From positions 1 to 64,000 of the forward strand of contig JAFYMC010000012.1 of NCBI GenBank assembly GCA_017556805.1: a DNA stretch of 64,000 bases, read 5' to 3'. The notes under the pieces were generated by a model that was given only the letters and a program-made list of their open reading frames with translations, did no database searches and was not told the DNA's origin. Position 1 is the first letter of the stretch. Each line of letters begins with the position of its first letter. Of this stretch, positions 9,393 to 15,036 are shown in pieces. The position numbers and the translations under genes were made by a program. The DNA comes from Lachnospiraceae bacterium. GTDB lineage: Bacteria; Bacillota; Clostridia; Lachnospirales; Lachnospiraceae.

Positions 9393-9580
9393 GGTACTGT
9401 TTCCTCTCTTTCGCGCAAATTTTCTGTTCATATAATTATAACAGAAACTTGCCCTTTTGGAAATAGCCCCATGACATTTTGATATAAATAGTTGGTTTTC
9501 TTATGTTATTTTTCTGTTGAGTTTTTTGGTCGGAAAGGAAGTCAGCTCTTATGCGTTTAAAATTTTCCCCATAGACACAC
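9393..9580. other. Intergenic region with operon promoter, otherwise empty
   Basis: Contains the leftward -10 box of the xylosidase operon near 9435-9445. I see no gene or repeat in the rest. Confidence 0.5.
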
Positions 9581-9645
9581 AAAAAAAGATTCCGGTTTGC
9601 TCGACCCTTCCCGAAAGAAGGAATTTAATGAGAACCAGAATCCTA
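9581..9645 (-). ncRNA. Putative small RNA A (about 65 nt)
   Basis: A complete small transcription unit on the minus strand. Promoter TTGTTT (9675-9680), 17 bp, TATAAT (9652-9657); then an outer stem of GATTCTGGTT (9633-9642) with AACCGGAATC (9588-9597), one mismatch; an inner hairpin CCTTC-GAAGG with loop TTTCGG; and a run of seven T (9581-9587). I cannot match it to a known RNA family. It has two 8-nt segments complementary to the RNA at 9766-9861. Confidence 0.65.
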
Positions 9646-9651
9646 AAAAAT

Positions 9652-9680
9652 ATTATAGCATATAACGAAGGAGAAAACAA
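9652..9680 (-). promoter_or_regulatory. Promoter of small RNA A
   Basis: TTGTTT, 17-bp spacer, TATAAT on the minus strand, placing the start about 7 nt before the first stem of the RNA. Confidence 0.6.
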
Positions 9681-9733
9681 GGAGAACGTGCAATTCTCTA
9701 ATCAACTCCCAGCGAATCCCATGGTACAAAATC

Positions 9734-9761
9734 TTGACAATCGCGTAAAATGTGTTATAAT
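9734..9761 (+). promoter_or_regulatory. Consensus promoter of small RNA B
   Basis: Perfect TTGACA (9734-9739), 16 bp, perfect TATAAT (9756-9761). Start predicted at about 9766-9769, exactly at the base of the RNA's closing stem. It is the closest match to consensus that I noticed in the window. Confidence 0.75.
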
Positions 9762-9765
9762 AAAA

Positions 9766-9861
9766 GTAGTCAACTTGTGACGGATAAAAGCTGGGTTCCC
9801 GAATGGGAGTAGGCGCCTCGGTGCTTAGAATCCTTTGCTCCTGGGGTTGACTACTTTTTTT
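9766..9861 (+). ncRNA. Putative structured small RNA B (about 95 nt)
   Basis: The RNA is closed by a 10-bp stem, AGTAGTCAAC (9765-9774) with GTTGACTACT (9846-9855), and ends in seven T (9855-9861). Inside are smaller hairpins: CCC-GAAT-GGG, GCGC-CTCG-GTGC and GGAG...CTCC. Own consensus promoter, own terminator and no reading frame: a stand-alone ncRNA. I do not recognise the family. Its terminator overlaps the last codons and stop of the convergent DUF3644 gene. Confidence 0.75.
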
Positions 9862-10834
9862 GCATCTTTTTCTTTAAATCATCGAGTATCGTACTCGGTG
9901 CTTTTTTTATTTCCTCAAAAATGAAATCAATTGCTTGCTGAGAATAACTATACTGAGGCTGTGTCGAAATAAGATATGTAAAACACAATCTTTCATTCTC
10001 TTTGATTCCAAAATACGCTGTAAAAAGCCTAAAATGATAAATATTAAATTCCACCTCTGCACCATTGAGCAGCAACTTAATTCCTTCCTTTTGAATCCGC
10101 TTATTAATCTCTCTGATGCATGCTTTTGCATTGTATTTATGGGTATCATTCGGATCCTTTAACTCTTTGAGAATCCGCACACCGTCCGCTGCTTCTTTCT
10201 CGATGTGATAGAACTCTGTCGCCTGATTCTTGTCCTTAGTCAAATAATGATAATGCTCCACCCGGATTGCAAATGCATTGTTATTCTCTTCAATCATTGG
10301 CTCCAGTGTCTGCTGAACCGTAATTAGCCTCTCCGCCACCTGTTCGGTATACTTCCCTCTAATTTCCGTTTCATTCAACGACTTAAGCCGTACCGACAAG
10401 GTAATAAAATTCTCCGGAATCACACGAGTCATATCTACTCCATGAAACTCCATCATTTTATCAACAAAATTAAAAACACACGCCTGTAACAGAGGAATGT
10501 ATACCGCTTCATACTCCTCTGTAATAAAATGTGTACTTGTATTTCTCAGTTCGATTACCTTTTCGAGATTTTTTCGTAACGGAGCCTTCTCGTTAGTAAA
10601 AATTTTCTGCACACAATTTTCCAGTGTAATTGTTCGGTTCGGCTTATCCGGATAGTATATGGAATTCTCTCCGAATTTGTTTATCATATGCGCTTTCAAC
10701 ATCAATTCCCACGCATTACATATGAAAAAGCTAAATCCTTCCAATCTGTAATTTATTGACGGCTTATTATAAATTTCAATTGCCATCACAAAGGCCTCTT
10801 TCGCCTTATCTACAAGTCTCTCACACGTTGTCAT
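9851..10834 (-). CDS. DUF3644 protein, HEPN-like
   Basis: 327-aa protein matching the DUF3644 family by its N-terminus (SKEAF-type AKEAFVMAIEIYNKP, then LEGFSFFICNAWELMLKAHMI). A helix with ELRNTSTHF (about residues 102-110) fits the RxxxxH motif of HEPN ribonucleases; this is my inference. ATG at 10834 follows AAGGTGGG; the frame's earlier start is a TTG without a ribosome site. Family members often sit in defence or accessory regions. It has a strong promoter (10892-10921). Its 3' end overlaps the terminator of small RNA B, read from the other strand. Confidence 0.8.
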   Translation of the reverse strand: MTTCERLVDKAKEAFVMAIEIYNKPSINYRLEGFSFFICNAWELMLKAHMINKFGENSIYYPDKPNRTITLENCVQKIFTNEKAPLRKNLEKVIELRNTSTHFITEEYEAVYIPLLQACVFNFVDKMMEFHGVDMTRVIPENFITLSVRLKSLNETEIRGKYTEQVAERLITVQQTLEPMIEENNNAFAIRVEHYHYLTKDKNQATEFYHIEKEAADGVRILKELKDPNDTHKYNAKACIREINKRIQKEGIKLLLNGAEVEFNIYHFRLFTAYFGIKENERLCFTYLISTQPQYSYSQQAIDFIFEEIKKAPSTILDDLKKKMQKK

Positions 10835-12715: not shown

Positions 12716-13891
12716 CTACAAATCATCTTGAATTCGCTTAATATATTCTACGAATCTTGATATTGTCCAAATTCTATCCTGACGATCTTTCGGGTAACAC
12801 GAAATATATGGTTTTGGAACAACAAGAATAACTTTTTCCGCTCCCATCTCATCCATCTGTGCTGGTGACACCCCTTGTTGTAATGTACACAAGAATTTAT
12901 TCTCATCTTTTAATCTATCTGCTTCATTCAGAATCTGACGCCATCTATCCTTACAAGTTGTTTTGGCCGCTAATGTTGCCAATTTGCCCAATGGATAGGA
13001 AATATCATGATAAGCCTCCGCTGAAGGGAAAAGAAAATCAGGCTTTTTCTTCCCTTCCGTAACTGCTTGTGAATCATATACAATTTGATTAGCATTGAAT
13101 ATTGCTTCCAAATGATGCTCTAAACTCTTTCCCGCCCTACTTTTACGCCTATTCAATATCGAATTAGCAACACTTACAAATTCTTCAACAGATGTGAATC
13201 CTGTTTTTACAATATCACCATATCGATACTCTTCTATCGCTCTAAACAATGCATATTCCATATTAGTCCATTCTATAATTTTTTTGTCAGGATTAGTAAT
13301 CAAATATTCAACATGATTATATACTGTTTCTGATATAGCTCTCGCTGCTAGCGACATTGCTTCTGTTTCAGGGAATTCGACTTGCAATGATGAAATAAAT
13401 GTTTCAATGGCCTGCTTCTCCACAGCGCTTCTCTGTACGCCACCCGCCCCAAATAAACAGTTAGTTTCTGTTGCACTAATTCCAAATGTATTTAAAAACT
13501 CTTCGATTTCATCTTCCGTATCTAATATATACGCTGAATAATCATCCCACGACTGTTTTGTTAACACAAAAAGTGCTCCCGTTCTATCGGGATAAATTAC
13601 ATCAAATCCTCTTCCAAATTTAGTAATTCTCAATTCTCTCTTACTGCTATAGTAAGTAAAAGCGCTTTCTGTAGTTAAATTCCCCTGCCATGTGATTTTT
13701 ACATTTCTTTTTAAAATATCATTATCTGGTAAGGATTCTTTAAACATCATTCTACTTGCAGATACAGATACTAGCACACCACTTTGGTGTCCACCTGTAG
13801 CGCCTGTATCATTTGCCGCCAAGAACTTACAAAAAGACAATTCACTTGCGACTGCAGCTTCTATTGCTTTACTAACTATTTCTTTTGACAT
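12716..13891 (-). CDS. EcoRII-type type II restriction endonuclease
   Basis: 391-aa endonuclease with both EcoRII domains. The N-terminal effector domain carries FLAANDTGATGGHQSG (about 24-38). The C-terminal catalytic domain carries RRKSRAGKSLEHHLEAIF, then KKPDFLFPS, and LAAKTTCKDRWRQILNEADR with the catalytic lysines, and the LQQGVSPAQMDEM tail typical of the family. EcoRII itself (about 404 aa) cuts CCWGG; the site here is probably the same or related, not proven. Its ATG overlaps the stop of the cognate methyltransferase by one base (TAATG), so expression of the nuclease is coupled to the methylase. Confidence 0.9.
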   Translation of the reverse strand: MSKEIVSKAIEAAVASELSFCKFLAANDTGATGGHQSGVLVSVSASRMMFKESLPDNDILKRNVKITWQGNLTTESAFTYYSSKRELRITKFGRGFDVIYPDRTGALFVLTKQSWDDYSAYILDTEDEIEEFLNTFGISATETNCLFGAGGVQRSAVEKQAIETFISSLQVEFPETEAMSLAARAISETVYNHVEYLITNPDKKIIEWTNMEYALFRAIEEYRYGDIVKTGFTSVEEFVSVANSILNRRKSRAGKSLEHHLEAIFNANQIVYDSQAVTEGKKKPDFLFPSAEAYHDISYPLGKLATLAAKTTCKDRWRQILNEADRLKDENKFLCTLQQGVSPAQMDEMGAEKVILVVPKPYISCYPKDRQDRIWTISRFVEYIKRIQDDL

Positions 13892-15036
13892 TAAATCGCC
13901 TTCCCTTTTTTCATATCAGCAATCTCTTCCATTAAACTGATTTTTTCTATTACCAATTTAGCAACATTGGCCATTAACGGCACCACTACTGAGTTGCCAA
14001 ACTGCCTATATGCTTGTGTATCAGATACCGGTATTACAAAACTCTCCGGAAATCCTTGCAACCTTGCACACTCACGCGGCGTCAATCTTCTTGGGTTTTT
14101 TCCCCTTTGAGCTATTAATATCTCTGATCCATCCTTATGGTACCTTGCACTGATTGTTCTTGAAACTCCATTTAATGGTGCTATTCCATATCCAAAACCA
14201 TTCCCTGCTGCTTTATGCTTAGCTGCATAGTTTTTAAGATATGTCCATAAATTATCAGATAATGTATATTTTGCATCAACTTTTTTTTCTAAAATATCTT
14301 TCATCACTGGCTTATGATTGAGCGGAGTGATATCAAAGGCAAATTCCATATCGCTACCATATCTTTCCATATCAAAGCCAACAATTATAATTCGTTCTCT
14401 ATGTTGAGGAACAAAGTCCTGCCCATCCAAAACAGCATAAAAAACCTTATACTTTAATTCATCCAACGATTCCAGAATTGTTTTAAATGTTCTTCCCTTA
14501 TCATGACTTTTAAGATTCTTAACATTTTCAAGCATAAATGCTTTAGGACGTTTTTCTTTTAGTATGCGACAAACATCAAAAAACAATGTTCCTTGCGTTT
14601 TATCTTCAAACCCCGTTTTTCTTCCCATACTTACCTTTTTGGAAACACCGGCAATCGAAAACGGTTGACACGGAAATCCTGCAACCAACACATCATGATC
14701 AGGAATAGTTTTTGCATCAACCTGCGTAATATCGCCATCTGGTTGCTCACCAAAATTAGCGTAATATGTTTGCTGACTATATTTATTCCATTCATTAGAA
14801 TATACGCATTTACCCCCAACCTTTTCATATGCAAGCCTCATTCCGCCAATCCCTGCGAAAAGATCAATAAATGTAAACTGTGACTTTATATCCGAGTTCA
14901 ATTTCTTTTTCTTATCAGTAATATAGTATGCAACTGCTTCTCTTACACAAGCTTGCATTGACTGGTCTGTTTCAATCGAATATGTATTAAGTTCTTCATA
15001 TAGTGCATCATCCACTCTTAAATGCATCTGCTTCAT
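13891..15036 (-). CDS. DNA cytosine-5 methyltransferase with N-terminal ribbon-helix-helix-like domain
   Basis: 381-aa m5C methyltransferase. Motif [15 protein letters not shown], motif [13 protein letters not shown] with the catalytic Cys, motif [10 protein letters not shown], motif [17 protein letters not shown] and motif [11 protein letters not shown] are all present. Residues 1-45 are an extra domain reading [19 protein letters not shown], like a CopG-type ribbon-helix-helix. It protects host sites from the EcoRII-type nuclease encoded by the next gene. The added DNA-binding domain, together with an inverted repeat over its promoter (15056-15090), suggests autorepression. Confidence 0.9.

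Follow-up and report, generated by a model that had tools for sequence, protein, structure and literature searches.

A structured RNA convergent with DUF3644 (HEPN) genes as a candidate antitoxin, with further copies in mobile elements and phages

The closest described systems and the RNA B–DUF3644 locus

In type III toxin–antitoxin systems (ToxIN, CptIN, TenpIN) the antitoxin is a tandem-repeat RNA encoded upstream in the toxin operon, and the ToxN fold differs from HEPN; in HepT/MntA (type VII) the antitoxin is a protein. For AbiF-RCd22 of the C. difficile phage phi027, passages of PMC12373285 describe an RNA that neutralizes a HEPN protein by direct binding, and name type VII among HEPN systems. 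PMC3475682 presents the antitoxin-like RNA pseudo-ToxI of phage PhiTE as molecular mimicry. The locus analyzed here lies in a 64,000-nt stretch from a Lachnospiraceae bacterium (contig JAFYMC010000012.1, positions 1 to 64,000), which we call the window. In it a small structured RNA, termed RNA B, is convergent with a gene for a DUF3644 protein of HEPN fold, and a second small RNA, RNA A, lies beside them. Comparison across genomes and phages suggests that RNA B and the DUF3644 protein probably form one RNA–protein module of the toxin–antitoxin or abortive-infection kind, with RNA B as the antitoxin. The features of this module are as follows.

9734..9761, plus strand: RNA B promoter, TTGACA-16-TATAAT with TG, scoring 12/12 in the promoter scan
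9766..9861, plus strand: RNA B, a small RNA with conserved structure; 5′ end as predicted from the promoter, identity from nhmmer and covariance-model family match and from covariation
9767..9776, plus strand: closing helix P1, 5′ strand, partner 9844-9853 (alignment columns 4-13/90-99)
9789-9791 and 9793-9795, plus strand: 5′ strands of P3 and P2, partners 9837-9839 and 9832-9834 (columns 26-32/78-85)
9796..9808, plus strand: P4 hairpin UUCCC-GAAU-GGGA (columns 34-37/43-46), which holds TTCCCGAA (9796-9803)
9812..9826, plus strand: P5 hairpin, variable in sequence and length (stem counts across copies)
9827..9834, plus strand: AGAATCCT, a conserved junction plus the P2 3′ strand (9832-9834)
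9851..10831, minus strand: DUF3644 / EC042_2821 protein, 326 aa, HEPN fold (Pfam, PADLOC, AlphaFold, VIA-align)

Gene and RNA are convergent, and the DUF3644 stop codon (9851-9853) forms part of the 3′ strand of helix P1 in RNA B. The protein passes the Pfam cut-offs for PF12358 (203.8 bits; cut-off 27.6) and PF18740 (115.7; 24.9), and DUF3644 and EC042_2821 are its sole Pfam matches. It matches the EC042_2821/DUF3644 family at E 2.3e-60 and PADLOC PDC-S19 (PDLC04952) at E 1e-139, and is a member of the PDC-S19/DUF3644/EC042_2821 group, for which phage defence by PDC-S19 is a candidate function; PDC stands for a phage defence candidate known by protein alone. Its N-terminal part aligns to HEPN structures (AlphaFold and VIA-align, rows mainly covering residues 1-142); a PDB sequence search gave no significant match. 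The HEPN motif is intact (RNxxxH; RNTSTH here), with R96, S99, T100 and H101 invariant in 32 of 32 DUF3644 proteins and N97 nearly so, replaced by D in the rest; the catalytic motif is given as R-phi-xxx-H in passages of PMC12373285. The protein is predicted to be a HEPN RNase. The passages on DUF3644/EC042_2821 in PMC3710099 mention no RNA. In the open-licence literature searched, DUF3644 and EC042_2821 are named in that paper alone and PDC-S19 nowhere; titles and abstract openings there yielded no RNA partner of DUF3644, though one may be described elsewhere.

What this module has in common with AbiF/RCd22 (RF03085), as passages on the latter describe it, is a prophage-borne HEPN protein with an RNxxxH-type motif and a structured RNA of roughly 100 nt with its own promoter. 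It differs in its HEPN family, which is DUF3644 and not Abi_2 (no Abi_2 match at E 0.001); in the placing of the RNA, convergent at the 3′ end whereas the same passages have RCd22 upstream and co-transcribed; and in having one compact structure as against two abiF motifs. At gathering score, neither the window nor loci L074, L117, L268, L351 and L357 contain the abiF motif RF03085, which gave no match up to E 10 in 9430-10000 either. With type III ToxIN and pseudo-ToxI our locus shares the idea of an RNA antitoxin and of a phage-carried RNA mimic, neutralization being a prediction here. Unlike ToxIN, the toxin-like protein is of HEPN type, with no ToxN/AbiQ-type match in Pfam. Unlike type III systems, there is one RNA B copy, on the opposite strand and the 3′ side, and the sole tandem copies found (three, in L212) are without DUF3644. 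Unlike pseudo-ToxI, candidate RNA B mimics are found in many phages, some of them in tRNA arrays. As to type VII, no MntA-like protein was found among ten window proteins scanned with Pfam. Genes for an EcoRII-like restriction enzyme and a C5 cytosine methyltransferase are near the DUF3644 module (window 12716-15036), in surroundings that we describe as a defence island.

Linkage and structure of RNA B

A blastn search with window positions 9560-9900 matched 18 phage records and one plasmid, over RNA B and not RNA A. Ten of these 19 places were opened, and seven have full-length RNA B convergent with a DUF3644 gene, as recognized by profile hidden Markov model (HMM): one Listeria, two Staphylococcus, one Flavonifractor and one Corynebacterium place, and a Streptococcus phage and satellite. 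The remaining three (L028, L035, L037) had no DUF3644 by HMM. DUF3644 was found in 46 phage records, and all seven of them that were opened contain RNA B.

When viral contigs were searched with the protein, 74 loci were recovered, which group into about 50 protein clusters at 90% identity; RNA B was present on the opposite strand in 68 of the 74 loci and 44 of the 50 clusters. Five of the six viral loci without it end 0 to 21 bases past the gene, and the sixth, L110, is a gene fragment; for L057 and L050, RNA B was found where their contigs continue, in L281 and L311 respectively. For DUF3644 genes with at least 200 aligned residues in the loci fetched by then, RNA B was seen with 203, 3 were cut and 2 were without it, one being L057, with its RNA B in the next stretch, and the other L130, of a distant subfamily. 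Since the 203-gene count takes in loci found by the RNA as well as near-identical copies, the unbiased linkage figure is 68/74 (44/50 clusters). Other DUF3644 subfamilies (L127-L131, 326-436 aa) had no RNA B.

For the structure, 42 RNA B copies of <92% identity, thinned from 79 redundant copies in the loci fetched by then, were aligned and folded with MAFFT and RNAalifold. Pairing extends to 92.5% of 966 cells, and 14 of 23 pairs are changed on both sides yet remain paired, which none of 500 shuffles reached; when the alignment was slid by one column, pairing fell to <60%. Further pair types were not above chance (37 vs 34.7 in shuffles; 78/500). Both-side changes occur in 6 of the 10 pairs of P1, 97.4% of whose cells are paired, and in 4 of the 6 pairs of P3 and P2. 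The register of P5 is poor in the MAFFT alignment (65.1% of cells paired); a P5 stem of at least 3 was counted in 87/101 distinct copies linked to DUF3644, in 32/41 solo copies (full-length, without the protein) and in 18/29 core copies (core only, without the protein). P4 is present in DUF3644-linked, orphan and phage core copies, the latter two having been picked by a pattern that includes P4. When folded by energy, RNA B of the window forms P1, P4 and P5, with GGAU:AUCC replacing P2/P3, and RNA B alone folds no better than shuffles (z -0.9; 34/200 as low). A GGA:UCC pseudoknot was considered and dropped, there being no evidence for it because those bases hardly vary; P2 GGG:CCU replaced it.

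RNA B ends in a U-run. Upstream of DUF3644-linked RNA B, a promoter scoring at least 10/12 was present in 76 of 107 distinct sequences, compared with 2.4% of shuffles. Against Rfam, RNA B reached the gathering score of no family, and relaxing the limit to E 10 in 9430-10000 brought up nothing beyond chance matches. Elsewhere in its own genome RNA B gave only weak matches (E 0.02 and 0.44), the better of which looks coding by eye. We regard the structure of RNA B and its linkage with DUF3644 as near certain, and these comparisons place it in a widespread, apparently undescribed family of structured RNAs that is absent from Rfam.

Copies of RNA B without the protein

A search of 398 genomes from the phylum found RNA B in 7 (8 copies) and PF12358 in 8, with both in 3. 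An HMM of the RNA-linked subfamily scored 42-85 bits for the five PF12358 proteins without RNA B and 472-496 for the three with it. Genome G006, of the same genus as the window and 94% complete, carries RNA B and gave no match to PF12358. The RNA B sequences of the two genomes are 98% identical (L005:1501-1595 vs window 9766-9862), the whole aligned stretch, RNA B included, being 82% identical; the high identity stands although G006 is without DUF3644.

Scanning with a core pattern of 21 bases, 17 of them fixed, gave at least 119 genome loci and 100 viral loci, one of which (L277) had no HMM match. Copies were classed by their HMM coverage and by a DUF3644 match within reach. Among the matches listed, 75 of 121 genome hits were beside DUF3644, 36 were full-length without it, 8 were core-only without it and 2 were too short; for viral hits the figures were 62 of 99, 9, 25 and 3. 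With phage records included and again among the matches listed, the fetched stretches of the 45 solo loci and the 34 core-only loci contained no DUF3644. Conversely, across the loci examined the RNA-linked DUF3644 subfamily appears not to occur without RNA B where the 3′ side is readable, one fragment apart. The RNA outlives the protein and the protein does not outlive the RNA, a pattern that fits the expectation for an antitoxin.

Full-length RNA B without the protein occurs in mobile elements and defence islands. A promoter was found for 16 of 43 distinct solo full-length copies among the matches listed, vs 2.3% of shuffles. Their neighbours include integrases, serine recombinases and mixed defence genes, mostly named by eye, with Pfam for four proteins; HsdM, Abi_2, recombinases and integrases are by-eye names, except that Abi_2 in L118 and SIR2 in L119 are Pfam matches. 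No constant second partner was found beside solo copies. In L118 a solo RNA B (1501-1594) is convergent with an Abi_2 (AbiD/F) gene (692-1354; Pfam), and a neighbour in L175, L213 and L297 resembles that gene by eye. The tandem RNA B copies of L212 (L212:795-1941) are about 527 nt apart, with no DUF3644 in the 3.3-kb locus.

The 25 viral core-only hits without DUF3644 in the fetched stretch are cases in which a phage carries the RNA and not the toxin-like protein. Core-only elements retain P3-UGGG-P4-GUA-P5-AGAAUUCCUUUG-P3′, with all or part of P1 gone, and many have another closing helix. Of 29 distinct cores, 28 retain the 3′ half, a part that the search pattern did not cover, compared with 7.7% of shuffles. 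Eight cores were folded, and the consensus formed unaided in L143, L227, L283 and L035 and not in L268, L331, L158 and L351. Pairs extending outward from the core averaged 3.4 as against 2.3 with swapped flanks, the maximum of 200 shuffles being 2.8 (29 records, 22 distinct). Only 1 of 27 cores had its own promoter. Among the matches listed, a tRNA lay within 500 nt of 11 of 32 distinct cores, always on the same strand, whereas 5 of 114 linked copies and none of 44 solo copies had one so near; related phages (L268, L317, L334, L342) were counted as separate if their flanks differ.

In Corynebacterium phage Darwin (L351), the core lies between tRNA-Lys and tRNA-Arg. We do not call Darwin lytic, because an excise gene is present. 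C. vitaeruminis CAG1 is the host of four phages, Poushou, Colleen, TouchMeNot and Arianna, in which DUF3644 occurs with RNA B; some records give CAG1 as a derivative of NCIB 9291, the host of Darwin. The 46 phage records with DUF3644 include neither Darwin nor LE2-3. As deposited, the Darwin record (L351:2494-3177) has its five tRNAs on one strand and ARAGORN places them on the other. In Eggerthella phage LE2-3 (L035:3000-3050) the core overlaps a 162-nt annotated hypothetical gene of opposite orientation, which may be spurious.

We propose that the core of RNA B would bind the HEPN protein and hold it inactive. Infection that halts or degrades RNA B would free the RNase, and phage growth would then be blocked. 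Solo full-length copies in integrative elements, and the cores in phages, may be antitoxin mimics that guard their carriers, and for the phage cores we lean towards such a decoy role. The cores, and they alone, might instead have an unrelated phage function such as tRNA-operon processing, the module having later borrowed the RNA as an infection signal, which would be compatible with RNA B as antitoxin. Their proximity to tRNAs in 11 of 32 cases and scarcity of promoters agree with this; however, cores and linked RNAs from Firmicutes and Actinobacteria match a single 21-base pattern, and most cores share a 3′ half outside it, as suits mimicry, so that we hold an unrelated function to be rather doubtful.

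Two other roles for RNA B itself were weighed. It could activate or guide the HEPN protein in a Cas13-like ribonucleoprotein effector, with orphan copies recruiting protein encoded elsewhere. Tight linkage and strong structure would fit, and passages of PMC12373285 suggest AbiD/F as the ancestor of Cas13, with potential RNA-guided capabilities. We nonetheless think this unlikely: the RNA is often found without the protein, including in G006; variable sequence that could act as a guide is confined to P5 and a short linker; and an activator would be of little use to phages without the protein. RNA B could also influence DUF3644 expression purely in cis, as a conventional regulatory RNA or a bidirectional terminator; its U-run end and its overlap with, or abutment on, the stop codon of the gene might suggest this. 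Its strong promoter, the conservation of structure beyond the overlap, and the solo and core copies in fetched loci without DUF3644 make a purely cis role quite improbable.

RNA A, LPD3 and the relation between the two RNAs

RNA A has the following features.

9581..9645, minus strand: RNA A, two helices and a U-run, unrelated to RNA B (five-sequence alignment)
9652..9657, minus strand: RNA A -10 box TATAAT, preceded by TGn (sequence), with a weak -35 TTGTTT at 9675-9680
9514..9648, plus strand: 3′-end remnant of an LPD3-domain gene, overlapping RNA A (match to the G004 protein)

RNA A folds better than its shuffles (z -3.3; 1/200 as low). In the five RNA A sequences, 110 of 110 cells are paired and 7 of 22 pairs are changed on both sides. 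The RNA A core pattern, sought in 299 genomes of the family, was found in G743, and a profile search gave two LPD3 proteins in G743 and one in G658. In G004 (where RNA A is in locus L006), G743 (one of its two) and G658, RNA A runs towards a small LPD3 protein gene (PF18798) from the opposite strand and overlaps or abuts its 3′ end, a convergent layout that covers three genera. In G006 only the part of the LPD3 gene that overlaps RNA A remains. The window's remnant matches residues 134-177 of the G004 protein at 64% (E 4.3e-7), a match partly forced by the overlap with RNA A, and is not itself recognized by Pfam. By eye, no such RNA accompanies the remaining LPD3 matches, L358 and L113, the latter within an 833-codon frame. 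The LPD3 protein gave no match in phages or viral contigs, and the RNA A pattern gave no exact match in viral contigs. An RNA A-like match in G122 (two mismatches) was dropped as chance; it sits in a coding region, aroE-like by eye. RNA A as a leader of the DUF1349 gene was not favoured, because that gene has a promoter-like site of its own (9463-9435). RNA A is a separate small family, here probably the leftover RNA of a second module whose LPD3 gene has decayed. Passages of PMC5512222 list LPD3 among 40 domains of elusive function and not among the seven flagged as potentially enzymatic, and a role for RNA A as antitoxin is therefore a guess by layout.

The initial annotation had taken RNA A and RNA B for an antisense pair, perhaps toxin–antitoxin-like, joined by two complementary 8-mers. 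These are indeed in the window and in the same order, TTCCCGAA at 9608-9615 and 9796-9803 and AGAATCCT at 9637-9644 and 9827-9834. At least two complementary 8-mers were also common to 129 of 5000 dinucleotide-shuffled RNA A/RNA B pairs, and two or more 8-mers are likewise shared between RNA B and 62 of 3848 further 66-mers taken from the window. Of 500 shuffled pairs, 61 reached a duplex energy as low as that of RNA A and RNA B, and co-folding the two RNAs gains nothing over the sum of their separate fold energies. The complementarity is barely above chance, in this one genome, and is weak evidence. Both 8-mers are conserved because they belong to RNA B's own core structure, in which both take part. 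The two RNAs are also separable across loci: G004 has RNA A and no RNA B match, its RNA A keeps one of the two 8-mers against the window's RNA B, and an RNA A-like core (up to 3 mismatches) was found, among 316 fetched RNA B loci, only in 11 overlapping copies of the window locus and that of G006. G006 keeps both RNAs at the same place with zero complementary 8-mers, and 424 of 500 shuffles do as well. The occurrence of RNA A without RNA B, of RNA B without RNA A, and of both without complementarity refutes the antisense pair, to which we assign almost no likelihood.

Other parts of that annotation are supported. Two small RNAs are real, comparison upholds a structured body for each, and a toxin–antitoxin-like module is still the best reading, though not by antisense. 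The promoters called good are so for RNA B; RNA A has a TGnTATAAT -10 and a weak -35. RNA A has a U-run, and the promoter/terminator scan lists neither a promoter nor a terminator for it. As for the suggested kissing-loop geometry, TTCCCGAA in RNA B makes up a P4 strand plus loop, so that only part of it is loop. Each of the two RNAs is linked to a different protein, RNA B to DUF3644 (HEPN) and RNA A to an LPD3 protein.

RNA A would then be the remainder of a second module of the same layout, and the interval between sfsA and the DUF1349 gene may be a place where such modules come and go. We extend this, tentatively and with somewhat less than even confidence, to a general layout in which a promoter-driven, structured, opposite-strand RNA that ends on or over the 3′ end of an effector gene would be an RNA antitoxin. 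Two unrelated examples would adjoin here, RNA B with HEPN/DUF3644 and RNA A with LPD3. Phages would counter the RNA B module with grafted cores, often in tRNA arrays, where tRNA processing would release them, and integrative elements would do so with full-length solo copies.

RNA B would supply the missing RNA half for PDC-S19, a widespread protein catalogued as no more than a defence candidate, and its alignment could seed a new Rfam-type family. Both halves of the module are small and could be tested in laboratory strains; a ready natural pair consists of Darwin and the phages with DUF3644 from a derivative of its host. A counter-defence RNA is predicted in phage genomes, in some cases within tRNA arrays that are usually read as tRNA supply only.
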